DNA of 64,000 bases, from contig NC_091970.1 in NCBI RefSeq assembly GCF_036711975.1, forward strand, positions 4,285,501 through 4,349,500, given 5' to 3'. The position numbers and the translations under genes are program-made. Origin of the DNA: Onthophagus taurus (taxonomy: Eukaryota > Arthropoda > Insecta > Coleoptera > Scarabaeidae). The notes under the pieces were generated by a model. That model searched no databases. It was not told where the DNA came from and saw nothing but the letters and a program-made list of their open reading frames with translations. This document shows, one piece after another, positions 31,485 to 62,400 of this stretch (position 1 is the first letter of the stretch; each line of letters begins with the position of its first letter).

Positions 31485-31995
31485 TGCTTTTTAATTTGTA
31501 TGTAATGAGATGTAATTGAATTGTTTTTGAATTGTACATAAACGTAATCGTAAACATAACCTAAAATTAGTCGTAGACATAACCTTAAAAAGTTCCAAAC
31601 AATTTTTTTTTGTATTTATACTCGATTCAGACTGTTTTTTAAGGTCGTATTTATTTATCTAATTATTTATAGATAATTGCAAGATTTAATAACAATGTTT
31701 ATTGGATTTTTACCATGTAATTTTGTAAATTTATTTAGGTTAAGAGTGAATTATAATTGATTATTATAATTTTAGTAAATATAAGAATGTTACAATTAAT
31801 AAAAATGAATTTTAATTATTAAGTTGTTTTAGTTATAAATAAAAACGCAACCCAAAACACTTTTTTAAAATTTTCCCCAATAGATGTCGTTTTAACACGC
31901 TTTAAGCCCAAATCTGTTAACTGTCGCTCAACACCACGCTTTGTTATTCGCATTAATGTTATTCTTTTAAAGATCCATCTTATTAAGCTTTTAAG
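31485..31995. other. TAK1 3' flank and Wntless upstream region
   Basis: Two CATAACCT motifs lie at about 31556 and 31578, and a motif variant, TAGATGTCGT, at 31881-31890. No gene is seen. Confidence 0.5.
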
Positions 31996-33612
31996 ATGGC
32001 CGGAACCGTTTTAGAAAATCTAAGCGGTCGAAAATTGAGTATTCTAGTTGCGATTCTCCTAATCCTTCAAGTGTTGTGTTTCATGATTGGGGGATTCATC
32101 GCCCCTTCGCCAGCGGGTCATCAAGGAATAACCGCGACTGTTTGTGTGGACGAAGAGGCCGGAAAGAATCGTGAAAAATGGTTTACGACCGATTGTGGAA
32201 GAAAAATTGATTTGGCAAGTCGTGATCCCATAAAAAACATGTTACCGGATAACTTGGTGTTTGTGTTTCAATTACCGCTTGGGATGCCAAAGTTTGATTT
32301 TTCCCGTTGGCAACAAAACTTGGTTGGAGTGTTGGAGTTTGATTTGGTACATGTCCCACCATTTAGTTTGGACCCGGTCGTTGATTTAGGGTTGGATGTT
32401 AAATTGGCCTATAAGAATCGAGGTGATGTTAAATGGAATGATTACGCAGTATCAATTGAAAAAAGAACGATGGATTGTATAGCGGGATACGATCAAGGTA
32501 ACGCTTTACCTGATTACATGTGTTCCACCGTACCTTTATTTGAATTGGGGGCTTTACACCATGATTATTATTTATTAAATATGCGATTACCAAGTGGTGC
32601 AGGGAAAAACAACATTCAAGCAAAAATTGCTGATGTTCGCTTACACGTTATTTATATGAATGGAGGGTTTACAATGATTTGCTTAGGATTAAAAACGTTT
32701 TTATTCCCTTGTTTATTAGCTGTGATGTTTTGGTTTTGGCGAAGAGTTCATATTTTATCAAGAACCCCAGCTTTATTGGAATATATGTTAATTACGTTAG
32801 CTGGATCGTTATTAATTTTTAATACTCCCATTGAATATTTATCTTTATATTTTGAAATGCCGTATATGCTTTTATTAAGTGACATCCGCCAGGGAATTTT
32901 TTATGCTACCTTATTATCGTTTTGGTTAATTTTCGCTGGTGAACATATGTTAATTCAAGATAGCGGAGAAAAAAATACGATTAAAAAGTATTGGAAGCAT
33001 CTCTCAGCGATTATTATCGGTTGTGCATCTTTATTAATTTTTGATTTTTGTGAGAGGGGTATTCAACTAAAAAATCCTTTTTATACAATATGGACAACAC
33101 CCTTAGGCACAAATCTAGCGTTATCGTTTATAATTTTAGCGGGAATTTCGGCAAGTATTTATTTCATTTTCTTGTGCTACATGATTTGGAAAGTTTTTCG
33201 TAACATTTCTATTAAAAGGGACACTCTTCCAAATATGTCCTCCGCTCGCCGATTTCATTATGAAGGAATTATTTATCGTTTCAACTTTTTGATGCTTGCC
33301 ACTGTTATTTGTGCTGCTGTAACAATTGTTACATTTATTTATGGACAAATTTATGAAGGTCAACATAATTGGGACGACGATATGGAACATATCGAGGTTT
33401 CTTCAGCTGTTTTTACTGGCGTTTATGGAATGTGGAATGTTTATGTTTGTGCAATGTTGATGTTGTACGCTCCGAGTCACAAACAATGGCCCACCGAACC
33501 TATTTGTAGAGAACATGGGGATGAAGTTGAATTTAGCCGATTAGCCACCGATCCATGTGCAAGTGAAATCGCTTCTTTAACTTCTTTTGCTAGCAAAGCA
33601 ACTATTGATTAA
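31996..33612 (+). CDS. wls: Wntless / Evi (Wnt cargo receptor)
   Basis: A single uninterrupted frame of 538 aa (human about 541). Wntless binds lipid-modified Wnt proteins in the ER and Golgi and carries them to the cell surface. The start MAGTVLENLSGRKLSILVAI leads into the first membrane helix (residues about 14-34). A lumenal beta-rich domain runs to about residue 225 and includes PKFDFSRWQQNLVGVLEFDL and the Wnt-pathway signature FELGALHHDYYLLNMRLP. Seven further hydrophobic segments fill residues about 228-495, and a polar cytosolic tail ends at 538. No frame breaks are seen. The absence of introns is unusual for this neighbourhood, where most genes have three or more exons. Confidence 0.96.
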   Translation: MAGTVLENLSGRKLSILVAILLILQVLCFMIGGFIAPSPAGHQGITATVCVDEEAGKNREKWFTTDCGRKIDLASRDPIKNMLPDNLVFVFQLPLGMPKFDFSRWQQNLVGVLEFDLVHVPPFSLDPVVDLGLDVKLAYKNRGDVKWNDYAVSIEKRTMDCIAGYDQGNALPDYMCSTVPLFELGALHHDYYLLNMRLPSGAGKNNIQAKIADVRLHVIYMNGGFTMICLGLKTFLFPCLLAVMFWFWRRVHILSRTPALLEYMLITLAGSLLIFNTPIEYLSLYFEMPYMLLLSDIRQGIFYATLLSFWLIFAGEHMLIQDSGEKNTIKKYWKHLSAIIIGCASLLIFDFCERGIQLKNPFYTIWTTPLGTNLALSFIILAGISASIYFIFLCYMIWKVFRNISIKRDTLPNMSSARRFHYEGIIYRFNFLMLATVICAAVTIVTFIYGQIYEGQHNWDDDMEHIEVSSAVFTGVYGMWNVYVCAMLMLYAPSHKQWPTEPICREHGDEVEFSRLATDPCASEIASLTSFASKATID

Positions 33613-45687: not shown

Positions 45688-46505
45688 ATGAAACTTCTCA
45701 TTTTTGTATTGGCCGTTATCGGCAACAGTTTAGGAGTACAATTTAACATAATTAATTATCATGGTGGTCCGATTAACGTTGGAATTCAAGGAAATTCTGG
45801 GAAAGCTCATTTGGCGGGTGGAGGATTTACTTTAAATCAGGGTGCATCAGTAATATAATTTAAATTAATTTTATTTTAAATATATTAAATCCTTTTTTAT
45901 TTTCAGAGATTTGTAGATGCACCTAATGATTGGGCCGGACGATTTTGGGCACGAACATGGTGTGTTAATGGCAATCACTGTGAAACCGGTGATTGTGGTA
46001 ATATAATTGAATGTAACGGAAATGGAGGTGCTCCACCGGCTACTTTAGTTGAAATCAATTTAAGAGCTCATGCTGGGCAAGATTTTTATGACATTTCCCT
46101 AGTGGATGGTTTCAACTCAAAGGCTCTCGTAAGTTATCACTTAAAAGATCTCTTACAATTACATCAACCTTCATTATACAGATTAGACCAGTTAATGGAA
46201 ATGGGCAATGTCCAACATTACAATGTAAAAGCGATTTGAATTCAAATTGTCCAAATGAGTTACGTCTTAATTACAATGGTCAGACCATTGGTTGTAAAAG
46301 TGCTTGTTTATTGAGAAATGAGCCGCAATATTGTTGTACTGGAGAATTCGGACCTGATCGATGCAACCCAAATAATTGGCCGGAGAACATCAATTCGGCA
46401 AAATATTTTAAAGCAAATTGTCCCCAAGCTTACAGTTATGCGTATGATGATAGATCTAGCTTGTTTACTTGTGTTGCTGATACTTATGAAGTTGAATTTG
46501 GATAA
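45688..46505 (+). CDS. Thaumatin-like protein (GH64-TLP fold)
   Basis: Three exons, 45688-45849, 45907-46128 and 46182-46505, give 235 aa with a signal peptide (MKLLIFVLAVIGNSLG). Thaumatin-like proteins are secreted, and several plant members bind or cleave beta-glucans; in beetles an antifungal or digestive role is suggested. Family marks: RFWARTWC, the CNGNGGAPPATLVEINL block, QDFYDISLVDGFN, QYCCTGEFGPDRC and CPQAYSYAYDDRSSLFTC. The conserved acidic cleft residues (E of LVEINL, two D of QDFYD/LVDGF, D of YDD) are present. The mature chain has 14 cysteines, not the usual 16; the first (in the NNC position) and the last (after the final FTC) are missing. The start was placed at the first ATG after the TATA box, directly ahead of the signal peptide. 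Confidence 0.93.
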
Positions 46506-53482: not shown

Positions 53483-56400
53483 TTAGTTATTTATTTTCTC
53501 AAACGTCAATCCAAGCCGTTTTTGCATCTCATCGAATCTTTGCACATATTCCGAAAGGAGTAGCGGGGTTTGAAGGGGTGCAAAATCGCTTCTAAAACAA
53601 AAATTAAATATATGTAAAAATAAATTTTCTTAAATTAAAACCAAAACATTTCATTTTAACAAATTTCCCTATTTGCTTCTTACAGCAAATAACTTTAGAA
53701 CATAACCTATAAATACAAAAATCCCCACTCCAACTTTAAGTATATGAAATGAGGACATCTCTTGGCTGAATCAACAACTTGATGGTCAATTTGAAATTAA
53801 TTTCTTATTGGGACGTAATTCTGATCATGTACAACTTAATTTTTATTATAAAAAAAAATCAAACTTACTGTGTGCTTAAAGGCCTTTCTTTTTGTGGTGG
53901 CGAACTCCCCGACCAAGAAGAACCCATCAATTGGGGCGACCTTGATTCACCCCGTCGAAAATTTTGACTCGAAACAGGTTGTCCAACTTCAAATTTCATC
54001 TCATAATCATTTTTTGTACCATTTTCGTGATACCTCTCATCACTCGAATAATTTCTAACCCCTGTATGCCATCTCCGAACCATAAACTTCATTCTTTTCA
54101 TAGCAATAATCGCAATAACACAACTTTTAAATTTTTTGATAGGTTCGGTTATTTTAATGGGGTGTTTAGGTTGAAAAACGTTTACGTTGGTATTAATTTT
54201 TTGATAAGACGCTAATAACTTAATTAAAAAATGCTTTTGATAAATTAAAGCTTTCCGATAACTTTCTGCTCGAAGATATTTAGCGAAAAGTTGATGCGAT
54301 TTATGATTTTGAGGGTTTTGATAATTCAAATTTGTATTAATTTGTTCTAATCGACGAATTTTGTCTAAAAGTTTTGATCGTTCCAAAGCGATTTTAGTTA
54401 AATTGTTTGTTAAAATCTTATTTTCTTCCATTTGTTGTTTAATTTCGATTGTTAATTCACGCATTTTATTCAATAATTTTTCAGGAACTGGTGAATTTAA
54501 GTTAACATTTTTTTCTTCGTTTAAAATATCATTAATTTTCGAATCTTCCTCCAATTCTCTAATACGCTCATTTAAAATAATTTGATCCTTCTTTAAATTA
54601 ATCCTCTCCTCCTCCATTTGATTCAATAAAATCCGATTATTTTGTGTTTCTTCACATTTCCGATCCAGCTCAAACTTAACCTCACTTAATTTTTCCTTTA
54701 AATTCTCTTCTTTTATCTTATAATTTTGTAGTTTTATCTCAAAATTTTCCAATTCTTTTAGTTTTAAGCCCAACATTTCTTTTGTGTACTTCAAATTCGA
54801 GTTTAATTCGTCTTTAGATCTCTTTAAGTTTCTAACTTCACTTTGTAAATTTTCATTTTTCTCATTACATAGATTAATTTCCTCTTTCAACTTAACAATT
54901 TCTTGTGATTCTAAACTCGGTAATTTTTTATATTCAGTCGTGCTCGAACTTAAATCACATTTTAATTTTCTGACCTCATTTTCTAACTCGAAGCGAATCT
55001 TTTTTTCTTGGTCCAAAATCGATTCCAATTCATCCTTTTGATCTAAAACGCTCTCAAATTTAATTCTTAATTGTTCGATTAAATTAGAATCTTCGATTTG
55101 TATCGAGTTTAATAAAAACCTTTCTTTTTCTAAAAGCGTATTTAATTTGACAACATTTTGACGTTCACTCTCTAACATAACCTCACTTTTTTCTAACTCA
55201 ATTTTTAAGCGATTTATTTCATTCTTTCTTAAATCTTTCTCGTCCTCGGAACTTAAAGCTTGTATTAAATTTAAATCTAAATGAGCCGAAACTTCTAATT
55301 GTTTTTGTACTTCTCCTCGAATATCCTCAATTGACGAACATTTTTCTTCTTTTTCAGAACTCTTCAATGAATCAATTTCCTCTTTTAATATTGCATTTAA
55401 ATGTTTCTCTTCTTGCAATCGTTTTCTTAAATCAACGATATTTCCCGTTTCTTGTATTTTTGATTGAATCGTTTCTAAATTTGTGTGTAAACTAACCGTA
55501 TCTTTTTGCATTTGCTCGATTATGTTGTCTTTTTCTTGTAGATATTCTTGAAGATGAATAATTTCTTTTTTTAAATCGTCTTGAATCGATTTTAATTTAA
55601 TTATTTCGATATTTTTTTCGGAAATTTCTTCTTGACCTTTTAAATCTTGAAGATCGTTTTGATACCGGAGAATATCTTCGTTCAAGATTTCAATTTCACA
55701 GTTCTTATCAACGATTAAATCATTTAATTTTCTCATTTCAACTTCATTTTCGTTCATTTTCCCTTCGAAACATTTAATTTCTTTCAATAATTTCTCGATT
55801 TCTTTATTTTTACTTTCGTTATTTGTATTTATCTGAATCAATTCGTTCTCTTTTAGATGTAAATCAGCTTTAATTTGATCGATTTCAATCAAATTTTCAT
55901 TCATCTTTCTAATTTTTTCTTCAAGTTGTTTAATTACCCCATTTTTCTCCTCAAAAACGCGATTAATTTCGTTAATTTTTATCTCAAAATCGCGTTTTTC
56001 CTTTGCTAGATTAAAATACATCTCGTCTTTTCTTTTGTGATCATCAACAGATGATTTTAATTCATTTTCAACCTCACCGAGTTTCATTTTCTTTTCGGCT
56101 AGTTCTAATTGAAGCGATTTCCTTTCGATTTCAAAGTTTTCTTTTAATTCTTTTAAATTTTCTTCCAATTTTAACACATTTTCGGTAAGTTCTTGAATTT
56201 TTGTTTCCAATTTTACCTCGTCATCGAAATGAACCTTTTTGTGTTGGATTTCCGTCGAGTTTTGGACTAAATTAAAATCGATTTTGGTTTCGTTTGGATT
56301 CCTCGGGTTGAAATTCATTGAATTTTCGATGCTATCGATTATATTTTCGTTTCTTCTTGCGATAGGAGTTAAATTAAGAAAATCCGAGAAACCCCTTTCG

Positions 56401-59400
56401 GAACTTTTCATTCTACTGATATGTTTTAGTTGATCGTAATCTAAATTTAATGATAAAAACGATTCTAACTGCTTTTGAGTATCATCTAATTTTAACCTTA
56501 ACTTTTCTATATCCGAGTTTTTATCTGCAATAATATTATCCACTAATCCAGGTAAAATTTGAGCGTTTTGAGCATCGCTTTCAATCTTTGTTTTTAAAAA
56601 CCTATTCTCCTCCTTCAATTTAATCATCTCCTTCTCAAAATTTAATAAAATCTCATCATCCTCCCGATTATTTAGTTCTTTTTCCCGATCTTCTAACCGT
56701 TTCTTAGTCTCATCAATTACTTTATTTAATTGCTTTAAATTTTTATCTTTAGCATGCATCGTATCCTTTAATTCTTGTATCTCATTCTCTAAATCGTAAA
56801 TTTTTAATTCCAAAGATGTGTTTGCTTGTTTCTGATTTTGTTCGGCTTTTAACCGTTGCTCGTCCAGACGCATTTGTAACGAGGACAATAAAACTATTTG
56901 CTCAGTTACTTGGGCTTGAAGAAGATCCTTCTCATTTTGAGAATCCTAAAAAAATGAATAAAAAGTGTAAAATTAAGAAGAAAATTCAAAAATATAACCT
57001 TAACGGCGTCAAAACGCCGTTAAGGTTATATTTTCTGTCAAACCCCTACAGTTTAATTTTCGTTTTTTAAACAATCATAATCGTTCATAATTATCAAAAA
57101 AATTCAATATCTAATCAATATTTTATAAAACGGTTCAAAAACAACAATATAATTAATTATTAAGAAATAAAAAAGAACATAAACGTAATTTTTATAAATT
57201 ATTAAAGCGCGCCCTCTCTCTTGCTCGAATAAAAACGATTATTAGTTTCCTGTAATTATACACTAAAACCGAACAACACACATTTGAATAACATTTTTAT
57301 ATTTGTTTAAAATAATTTATTTACCTCCAATTCCTGTTTAGTACTACTCAATTGCATCTCTAAATCGCGAATTCTTTTGACGGCCGCATCTTCGGCTCGG
57401 GAATGTTTAATTAATTTTTCTTTTAACCGGGCTAATTGTTGAAGGGGAACGTCACACTCATCGAAAACGGCTCCGGGGGTGTTTGGGCGAACCTAAAAAT
57501 GAAATAATAAAATATAAATTTGCAATTTCGTAACACGAAAGAATTACTTGGTCCCTATAAGACATCTCATCCGATGGAGTTGAACACCCTGTCGATGACG
57601 AATGCAATCCTTCCAAATCCCGAGTTTTTTTATCGATGGAACTCTCTAATTCGTACAATCTTACTTGGATTTCCTTAATAACCCCTTCGCTTCCAGCCAA
57701 TTCGCTGTTTAACCTCAATTGTTGAGCTTCCTTTTCTAAAGCGACGATTTTTCCCTTAAAAAACTCCACATCCGGGCCTAATTTATAATTTTCTAGTTGC
57801 TCGTAAAGCTCGTCAATCGTCTCCGATTGTTGTTTAACAACCGGATTCAATTTCGAAATGATCTCTTTTAACTCGTTTTCAGAAATCGTTTTCTCTTTCA
57901 CTTGATTATCCAAATCCCTAATAATATCCCTCAAATCGGAAATTTTATCAATCGCTTCTTTACGTTCCGTTTCAATTATTTGATGTTTAGCCTGGCTCAA
58001 TTCTTGTAATCGGGTCATTTCGTGCATTTGACGCTCGAGATGTTCGACCTATTTGGACGTGAAACGAAAAAAATTGATTTTAAAACCATGATAAACATTT
58101 TTTGGATTTAAATTTAATGTATTTATGTAGCTACAAGCTCTCTTTAAGTTCTAACTTAAGACTAAAAGTGCATCAGATCCAAGCGCGAACGGAAAAGGTT
58201 CCAAAATAGAACGTCACTTAATTATAGAATAGAAACGGGGTGTTTAAGAAGATGAAAGAGGATGTTTTTTTTTTAATAAATTTAAAAATAAAACTCACGG
58301 TGCTATTAACAAAATTTATGGCGTTGTGGCAGCATTCGTTAAGCTTCCAAATTCCATCCTAAATAAGTGCAAAAATCCAAAAAGTTACTACACAAAAATT
58401 AATCCCATTTACCATGTTAAATAAAAGCTTAAAGCGCCTCAACAGAAAATTAATAAAGCCTGTACACACCTCTTTAACCATTAAATTACGATTTTGCTTC
58501 TCTTTTTCTTTTTCTTTAAGGATTTCGTTCAAACTTTCAATTTCTTTTTGGGCATCGCTCCGTTCTTGTTCGCGCTCCATCGCTTGTTCTTCCAAAAAAC
58601 GATTCGTCGATCGCAACTTTTTCTCGGCAGCTTCTATCTAAACGTAGCGAAAGAGCACATTGCAAAAGCAAAAATTTTATAAACTCAATCGTACATAACC
58701 TCAAATTTTAAAAACAACACCGATTTCGGGTTTATTCCAACAACAAAAACAACACGAACGAGAAAACAAGTTATTATGAGTTAGAAGGCGAAGAATTCGT
58801 GCTTTAAAAGCGATTAAAATGAAATTTAAGGGTTTAATTAAGCTTTCTTTTGGCGACATCTTTAGTTAATACAATATTTATTTAAAATATATTGAATTAA
58901 ATTAAAGGAGTTTAATTAACTTTTATTGGATTTATTTTGTACTTATCGGATATTTTATGAAATTAAATAAATACGATTAAAAATTATTAATGAGGTTATG
59001 TTTATGAATAAGAAAATGACTTTTTAAAAAATGACGTTTGAAACGAGAAGTGGCACCAACCTAAACTCATAATTTAATTTAAAATGTAAAAATTAAAACT
59101 AAAAATGTGTCAATGCAACTAAATGACTATTCGGAAGATTTCATTAATCACTTTTAATAAATTTACTTTAACAAAAATTTTAAGGAATTAAATAAATTCG
59201 ATTAAAAATTATAAATGAGGTTATGTTTATGAATAAGAAAATGACTTTCAAAAAAACAATGGTACCAACCTGAGGTAATTCTTTAATTTTTAACCTACCT
59301 GTTGTATTAAATCCCTTTTTTCTTTCTTCGATTCATCATCGATTCGTTCCCCTTCCCTACATAGTTCCTCGATTAACTCTAAAAGCGGGTGATCCGCCCC

Positions 59401-62400
59401 ACTTTTCCATTCGGCGGCTAAATTTCTTGCTTTTTCTTGTAACTCGATTAAATTTCCGATTTTCCCCGGTTTGCCGTCCAAGCTACTCTCTCCGTAACCT
59501 TCCGAAACGATTTCATTACGTCCACATTCAATTAATTCAGTAATTTTTCGATTGGAATTCTCTAAATCTTTCTCTAAAGTTTTTTGTTTTACCATAAAGT
59601 GTTCGATTTGGTTCTCTAAATGATTTCGTTCCGATTCTAACGTTTTAATATATTCTTTTGCCTCCTTCAATTGGTTACTTTCTAACAAAAAATCGTCGTT
59701 TTTGTGAGGTTTTTGATTTATGTTTGATGATAATGCTAAAATAGTGTTTGCATCCGACTTTAAACGATCCAAACAAGTTCCGAGTTCATTTTTAAAATCA
59801 ACCGAATCTATCGATGAATCAATGAAGTTTAAATTAGGGGTAAAATGGACTCGTTTTATGAAACTTTCGGTTATCGAAGAGTTATCAAGGGTTTCGTTTT
59901 GGTCGAGTTGATTATTTTCGAATCCCTGTTTTAAAATTTCATCGATTAATGTTTTATTTAATTCGTCCTCGCATTTGGTGAAATATTTCAATAATTCGTT
60001 AATGATGTTTTTTAAAATCACGTTTGATTTTTTTAAACCATCCCTGTAACAACCAAAAAATAATAAACTGAGTTGTCAATAAAATATCAAATAAAATTGA
60101 AGTTTCGTGCCAAAAAAAAACACAATTTATTTATCAAAATTAAAAATGGTAACGTCCAAAAATTCCAGTGAAGAATCGTTGCCGTCAACATGTAAAAAAC
60201 GAAAGCTTGACCAGGGTGGTTCCGCCCCACAATCCCGAAATTGTTATAGCATACACGTCGACGAACAACGCTTGAAAAAAGCCGACGAAAAACTGCAGTG
60301 TTTCATTGACACCAAAAAAAATTACGAATGCGAATTGATGAAAGCTTTGGATGAAATACGATGCATCGACGAACGGATTCATCAATTGGAGTGCAAAATC
60401 GAAAAGCTCATTACATCGCAGGCAAACATGGAGAGCAAACGAAGAATGCAAGAGGAAATCGAAATGATTAAGGAGGACAAAAAATACATGGACTGCGAAT
60501 TGAAAAAGTACAAACGACGAATCGAAGATAAAATGAAAAAATTAGAAGAGTGCAAAGAAATGAAGTGTAAAAGACCGTGTGATTGATTAACAAAAATGAT
60601 TTTGTATTTGATTTCAAAAAATTAAGTGTATTTTATTTTCTTATTAAATTTGACGTTTCTTAAGTTGACGTTTCTAAAAAATGACATTTCGAAAAATTTA
60701 CGTTTCAAATTTTAATATCAAAAAACATTAAAAATTTACAAAGTAACCACAAATAAGATCAATAATTAATAACCCGACGACGAAAAATAGCGAGAAAAAA
60801 TATAAATTTTTAAAAAAATTGCTTCTGAAAGTTGACACTTTCATTTCTGATGAGGGCCAATTCCTTTTTCGCTCGGTCCCGAAATTCATTCGTCGCCGCT
60901 TCTTGCACTAACCGTTCGATTTCTTCCTCAACGTTTTCAATACGGCCGTTCAAACATTTAATTTCACGGAAATTCTTTTCGATGGTTTGTTCAAGCCGTT
61001 TCTTAGCCTCCGTGTAATTGTGCAATTTCTCCTGATTCTCCTCCAATTTCACCTGAATAGATTCCATCGTTTTTTCTTTATCAGAACCTTTAACCCAACC
61101 CATTTTTATTTTTTAAAAATTTATTTAATCAATTTTGTTTAAATTAAAAAAAAATGTCCACCAAATTTTGACGTAATCAAATTTTTCTAACGATCACTTC
61201 GATTCTTTTCAATTTGTTGTTTATTTTAATCTGTCAAAATTACGAGTACCTAAATTTATTTATTTTATTTAAAAATAATGTTACCTCAACTAAATTACGA
61301 TATCGATGAGCTTAAAAATCGAATAAGACGTTTGAGAGAGCAAAAACACTGTGAAAAGCACGCGATTAAATTACACAAAGATCAGTTGTGTGACGTTAAC
61401 CAGAAAATTCAAAAATTGGAGGGAAAAATATTGCAGTATACGACACAATTGGTGGAGAATGTTCCAAATTTATTTTCGAAAAATAAACGTTTCATTGAAT
61501 TTGCCCCAAGAAGAAAAAAAGAAAATTATTTACGAAAAAAACGTAAACGAAAAAATATTCAATAAATCATTTTTATAATAGCGCCATCTTTTATTGAATA
61601 GCACAACTAGAATTTAACCTCAAAATAACTTACCTATCAATCGAAACTTCCCCTTCTTTTTCATTTTCTTTAAAAGAATCTTTTAAATTTTTCACCTCCT
61701 CATCGTGTTTTTCTTTTAAATTTTCAATTTCGCTTTCATATTTTTCTTGGAAACACCGCTTTATTTGAAGTAACTCTCTCGGCCAGTAAGTATCATCGGA
61801 ATATTGAGATAATTTCTGCAAAATTACCTTGATAATAATGTATAAATAACTAATATTAATTTACCTTAATTTCTTGCATTAAGTTTTTAAAAATATCAAT
61901 TCGAGCTAAATCGATTTGCTCTTGTAACCGACGTTCGTAGCTTTTAACAACATCAACAATTTCAAACTCATTACTAATTACTTCTTGAGATGTTAAATTG
62001 TTTTGGAGATGTTTCAATTCTAATTTAGTATCACCGCCAGGCCCCAAATGTTGATCATAAGCCATTTGATTCGATGAATCGTTTAACATTTTTCGATTAA
62101 TTTCTTCTGAGTAATTTTTTTCTAATTCGACACATTTCTTTTCATAATAAGTTCTTAAATCTTCTAATTCTTGATTGTGTTTATCACCCAATTCTTTTTT
62201 TAATTCAACCTATAAATATACTTAAATAAAAATTTAATTTTATGACATCATATTTTTACCTCGATTTCTTTAATTTCCTTTTTATGTTCATCTTGAACCA
62301 CATCGATTCGTTTTTGAACGTAAAATTCAAAATAATTTTTCAACTCACTCAAAATTACCAATTGATGTGGGCTCAAAACCTGCTCAAGCTTCCGAAAAAT

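Follow-up and report, generated by a model that had tools for sequence, protein, structure and literature searches.

A single intron of a pericentrin-like gene of Onthophagus taurus holds three open reading frames, and the question raised by this locus is whether such frames are genes, whether they are related to each other, by what route they came to lie there, and what their products could do. The whole stretch of DNA analysed (the window) comprises 64,000 nt (C5:4285501-4349500), and the host, on its minus strand, is assigned to the pericentrin-like gene (Plp) by a profile match to the PACT_coil_coil domain. The features concerned are the following, in window coordinates except for the last:

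53868..56945, minus strand: host Plp exon with the PACT domain (PF10495, E 5e-13)
59293..60043, minus strand: Plp exon downstream of the intron (open frame and splice junction)
60044..61633, minus strand: Plp intron holding A, B and C (GT/AG ends and continuity of the host frame)
61634..61815, minus strand: upstream Plp exon, with an open frame and the donor site of the intron (the 5', higher, border is approximate and placed by eye)
60146..60586, plus strand: gene A, 146 codons, coiled coil with 10 cysteines, family member (shuffles, hhalign)
60810..61103, minus strand: gene B, 97 codons, coiled coil, family member (56% identity to D; purifying selection)
61104..61277, no strand: spacer of 174 nt from which B and C start in opposite directions (coordinates; putative promoter role)
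61278..61565, plus strand: frame C, 95 codons, which may be an orphan gene without relation to the others or may have arisen by chance (shuffles; codon score)
C5:4360212-4360490, plus strand: gene D, 92 codons, family member outside the window (whole-genome protein searches)

The intron spans exactly 1590 nt and is bounded by GT/AG, with the host frame continued from one side to the other (...GEVSID-R/DGLKK...). The 1.59 kb intron and the frames of 146, 97 and 95 codons in the orientations +, -, + were placed correctly in the initial annotation. Apart from A, B and C, this intron contains no ATG frame of 90 codons or more. An order-2 Markov model trained on the entire intron gave, in 1000 sequences, 126 with one frame of this length, seven with two and one with three, and a lone frame such as C is therefore within chance; when the training was restricted to the parts of the intron outside the frames, one such frame appeared in 4/1000 sequences and more than one in 0/1000. 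In a neighbouring Plp intron, a direct repeat of 89 nt is present (window 58943-59256), its copies being 89% identical and 225 nt apart. Elsewhere in the window, a Wntless gene occupies one uninterrupted frame of 541 codons (31987-33612, plus strand; PF06664 E 4e-72, PF21883 E 2e-40) and is possibly intronless, while a gene of the Thaumatin family, which is uncommon in animals, is represented by two overlapping frames (45889-46505, plus strand; PF00314 E 1e-25 and 9e-29).

In regard to the relatives of these frames, the genome (290.8 Mb, 33 contigs) was searched with protein queries, to E 1e-3 for A, E 1 for B and for C, and E 10 for D, scoring only the best candidates (10, 8, 3 and 4, respectively), and remoter members are possible. 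Among the candidates scored, the best non-self match of B is gene D (56% identity, E 2e-23), which lies 13.6 kb from B and 10.7 kb past the right end of the window. The non-self matches of A at E 1e-3, among its best 10 candidates, are B and D only, and B and D each match the other and A, followed by one weak place apiece (E 0.43 for B, 1.58 for D). All three are found inside 15 kb of a 291-Mb genome. A profile of A, B and D run over 4508 open frames in 294 kb recovered A, B and D, with no other match below E 2. Pattern searches of collections that are not of insects gave matches of which none was confirmed, namely 176 for A, B and D and 18 for C in IMG/VR, and 333 for the pattern of B and D in prokaryote genomes. 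Telomere-repeat patterns of 30 bases gave no match for TCAGG and two overlapping ones for TTAGG at a single place, which is uninformative as to the insect order.

Two coiled coils may resemble each other through their heptad composition only, and the pairs were therefore compared with shuffles (3000 per direction) that exchanged residues solely between equivalent heptad positions. The scores of 108 for A-B, 105 for A-D and 242 for B-D were reached by none of the 3000 shuffles in either direction, and a relation beyond heptad composition is thus present in all three pairs. Likewise, hhalign aligned the profile of B and D to A over 71 residues with E 4.9e-8. The gap-free alignment of A and B over about 70 residues described at the outset is borne out, as it covers 70 residues with 22 identities, unreached both by the 3000 heptad-keeping shuffles and by 400 ungapped ones.

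The same comparisons do not extend this relation to C. Its score against A (55) was reached by 182/3000 shuffles of C and 53/3000 shuffles of A, its score against B (40) by 1250/3000 shuffles of C and 846/3000 of B, and its score against D (30) by 1778/3000 shuffles of D and 2130/3000 of C, while the ungapped scores against A, B and D were reached by 267, 191 and 208 of 400 shuffles. Furthermore, C is absent from the matches of the A, B and D profile at E 5, its hhalign probability is 0.4%, and the genome search to E 1 returned only C itself among the best three candidates scored. As its similarity to A, B and D is within the range of shuffles, C is left out of the family, and the second half that it was initially said to share with A and B is not supported, gapped or ungapped. 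One could still regard C as a third nested member diverged past detection, because it lies in the same intron as A and B, has a coiled-coil stretch, carries DQLCDVNQKIQKLEGKI where A has, by eye, the similar DEIRCIDERIHQLECKI, and reaches with A a score among the top 53 to 182 of 3000 shuffles; given the ungapped comparisons, the silent profile, the hhalign value and the solitary genome match, such an origin appears quite improbable. For C this leaves an unrelated orphan gene or an open frame due to chance, and only if C is a gene would the spacer at 61104..61277 serve as a shared promoter of B and C. Of the small expanded coiled-coil family proposed in the initial annotation, the family itself is retained, with A, B and the outside gene D as its members, and C is removed from it. 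It is very probable, judging from these sequences, that A, B and D, which encode short helical (coiled-coil) proteins, make up a small family, comprising two old intronless nested genes and D, that has spread locally.

The coding nature of these genes is best seen in B and D, where 47 of 84 aligned residues are identical and nucleotide changes are distributed over the three codon positions as 25/20/42. The rates are dN 0.33 and dS 1.62 by NG86, and dN 0.29 and dS 0.99 by LWL85, corresponding to dN/dS of about 0.2 and 0.3, with maximum likelihood giving a saturated dS of 7.5. In 1000 neutral simulations, evolved to an equal number of nucleotide changes before the identities were counted, the mean was 32.6 identities and none of the runs, from either starting sequence, reached the observed 47. 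Because this identity lies above all neutral simulations, B and D are, as far as can be read from their alignment, old genes under purifying selection. For the pairs with A, the 22/70 identities of A-B were reached by 0/1000 simulations and the 23/69 of A-D by 8/1000, while the excess of third-position changes is weaker (reached by 31/1000 and 94/1000, respectively), and the LWL85 dN/dS components of 0.70/0.59 (A-B) and 0.57/0.56 (A-D) are uninformative.

Codon scores amounted to 0.185 for A, 0.146 for B, 0.281 for D and 0.019 for C, to be compared with 0.176 ± 0.081 in 41 coding pieces, which are the score's own training exons, and -0.116 ± 0.160 in 51 noncoding frames. A, B and D are placed among the coding pieces and C between the two sets, which overlap: 2/51 noncoding frames score above A and 4/51 above B, and the +2 frame of B (0.232) scores above its own frame. 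Synonymous usage alone (A -1.0, B -4.3, D +5.7) did not separate coding from noncoding sequence. The signals AATAAA or ATTAAA are present 56, 93 and 40 nt past the stops of A, B and D, a weak sign in such A+T-rich DNA. The moderate codon evidence for A and B, together with the uninformative ratios in pairs with A, could also be expected if both were silent relics, that is, former genes whose frames are now unexpressed, but the frames have stayed intact at a dS near saturation and the protein identity of B-D and A-B exceeds all 1000 neutral simulations, which renders such relics highly improbable. By the neutral simulations and the B-D dN/dS, A and B are protein coding and under selection, and their coding frames lie wholly within a spliced intron of another gene.

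Two routes could have produced such copies. The initial annotation had suggested a retrogene cluster, in which A, B and D would have been reverse-transcribed from a spliced parent, and the three known copies are indeed all without introns. However, the genome searches with A, B and D revealed no intron-bearing parent among the best-scoring candidates (a lost or very diverged one is possible), and the copies are confined to 15 kb, whereas retrocopies are usually scattered across the genome. Retroposition is therefore unsupported by any multi-exon parent and is considered very unlikely; the poly(A) remnant and target-site duplication expected of a retrocopy would have been lost at a dS this close to saturation. 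Local duplication, favoured by the clustering of the copies, fits the arrangement of A, B and D better, as far as their positions and sequences indicate. Stretches of 180 nt on either side of B and D resemble each other only within the range of shuffles (144/1000 and 317/1000), a dissimilarity that age alone could explain, although in permissive blastn the match of B to D reached 180 nt further upstream (62% over 457 nt).

Within gene A, a 26-nt repeat (77%) is present at 60313-60338 and 60478-60503, spaced 165 nt or 55 codons apart, and a partial internal duplication may be the source of the second helix of A. In addition, permissive blastn matched the 3' part of gene A (60478-60615) to the Plp exon upstream of the intron (about 61610-61750, Plp strand; 63% over 143 nt, E 4e-5), which probably reflects a common Lys/Glu codon composition.

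With respect to known families, none of the Pfam and NCBIfam matches that carry a cut-off reached it (all 7 for A, the best 25 of 33 for B, all 3 for C). The same outcome was obtained in a second comparison for A, B and D, which covered the best 25 of 41 families and did not include D's own scores, and in a further one with scores for B and numbers of matches for A, C and D. Highest among the matches with a cut-off is Tropomyosin for B (E 1.4e-5), which was rejected since its 25.1 bits stay below the cut-off of 38.6 and indicate a general coiled-coil likeness; in the same way, matches of A, B and D to PDB sequences are general coiled coils, and C gave a single one at E 0.44. The profile of A, B and D resembles the N-terminal domain of ING proteins (PF12998; PDB 4afl, ING4) without gaps over 66 residues (E 4.3e-4), but the profile of B and D alone gives E 0.45, and the PF12998 model finds six places in the genome at E 0.1 that do not include A, B or D. 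HSBP1 (PF06825), which we take to resemble the family as a short coiled coil, was rejected likewise, as the five places that its model picks at E 10 are one HSBP1 gene elsewhere in the genome and four weak matches, A, B and D again not being among them.

In an AlphaFold model of A computed from two sequences, B being the other, helices are predicted at residues 40-92 and 95-138 (mean pLDDT 78, pTM 0.35), while residues 9-33, with pLDDT under 50, are predicted to be disordered. Foldseek on this model returned nothing below E 5, the two matches listed having E 5.3 and 5.8. The earlier statement that no named family is recognised thus holds among the Pfam, NCBIfam, PDB-sequence and Foldseek matches considered, and the family of A, B and D is apparently unnamed. 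Its members differ in cysteine content, with 10 in the 146 residues of A, one in B and none in D.

The surroundings of D bear on possible function. D starts 101 nt past the stop of a B9-C2 domain gene on the same strand (C5:4360108-4360212; distance and last exon determined by eye), which is identified by PF07162 in its middle exon (E 2.7e-10) and is presumably B9D1. A protein kinase gene, which we take to be CDKL-like, lies upstream of the B9-C2 gene, and a convergent SH2-domain gene follows D. The 101-nt gap contains no AATAAA or ATTAAA, one ATTAAA being found just before the stop, inside the B9-C2 coding sequence, and a shared transcript of the B9-C2 gene and D is therefore possible.

Our best guess, suggested by nested-gene base rates, neighbours and composition, is that the family consists of small helical proteins that self-assemble and belong to testis or ciliated cells. 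Each gene would be transcribed, D perhaps jointly with the B9-C2 gene, chiefly in those cells, and its product would form oligomeric rods or hairpins within a microtubule-based structure, for example the centriole of sperm, a flagellum or a cilium. Taken as a whole, the explanation by nested genes A and B that form with D a coding family, transcribed and producing helical proteins of testis or ciliated cells, is given a probability of roughly 0.55, while its functional part, namely transcription mainly in those cells and a place as rods or hairpins in a microtubule-based structure, is proposed tentatively. The expectation of testis expression for A and B, voiced as 'testis-type' in the initial annotation, derives from Drosophila, where genes nested inside others frequently show testis specificity (PMC8467205). 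The ciliary hint, and with it the initial suggestion of accessory factors of the same organelle, comes from the neighbours, namely Plp (for A and B), the B9-C2 gene (for D) and the protein kinase gene that precedes the latter. The nearness of Plp and of the B9-C2 gene may, though, be accidental. Two of three Drosophila B9-domain genes are under RFX control, and the X-box consensus has 50,000 matches in the fly genome (PMC2375033). A degenerate X-box-like site is present at -99 of D, within chance, as 0.44 degenerate matches are expected per 300 nt; A has two degenerate matches and B and C none, and near-palindromic sites number 125 in 294 kb.

It is also possible, if short of probable, that the same three genes do work unrelated to centrioles or cilia, as general helical adaptors or, for A, as a nuclear protein. 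Coiled coils have many roles and the neighbours may be accidental, A carries a basic KKRKLD near its N-terminus in the stretch predicted to be disordered, and no ciliary family matched A, B or D among the matches considered; the testis base rate of nested genes and the B9-C2 neighbour of D, both weak, speak against it. Returning to the proposed role in testis or ciliated cells, the 10 cysteines of A might fit disulphide-linked sperm structures. A more elaborate version, regarded as unlikely, would have A, B and D as a lineage-specific accessory set of the centriole or cilium that evolved in or beside Plp and the B9-C2 gene and shares the chromatin or transcripts of these hosts, with D coming from an mRNA that also carries the B9-C2 gene and A, rich in cysteine, serving as a sperm form linked by disulphides.

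At present, these genes stand as a modest, apparently unnamed gene family. If expressed in sperm or cilia, A and B would be small components of the centriole or axoneme that change fast, and they would also offer a compact case for the study of transcription interference between host and nested genes, with two related genes kept in opposite orientations in one intron. Genes of this type can be missed by annotation, being short, intronless and nested in an intron. Among the entries listed by a literature search, none dealt with genes nested in Plp, which does not in itself show their absence in print.

Intronic nested genes are known from other insects, and in D. melanogaster about 6% of genes are intronic (PMC3786989). 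As small genes wholly within an intron of a larger unrelated gene, A and B are of this known kind, and they are real, if probably ordinary, nested genes. Unlike the usual insect nested genes, here two related genes lie in opposite orientations in one 1.6-kb intron, and a closer sister, D, is located outside the host.
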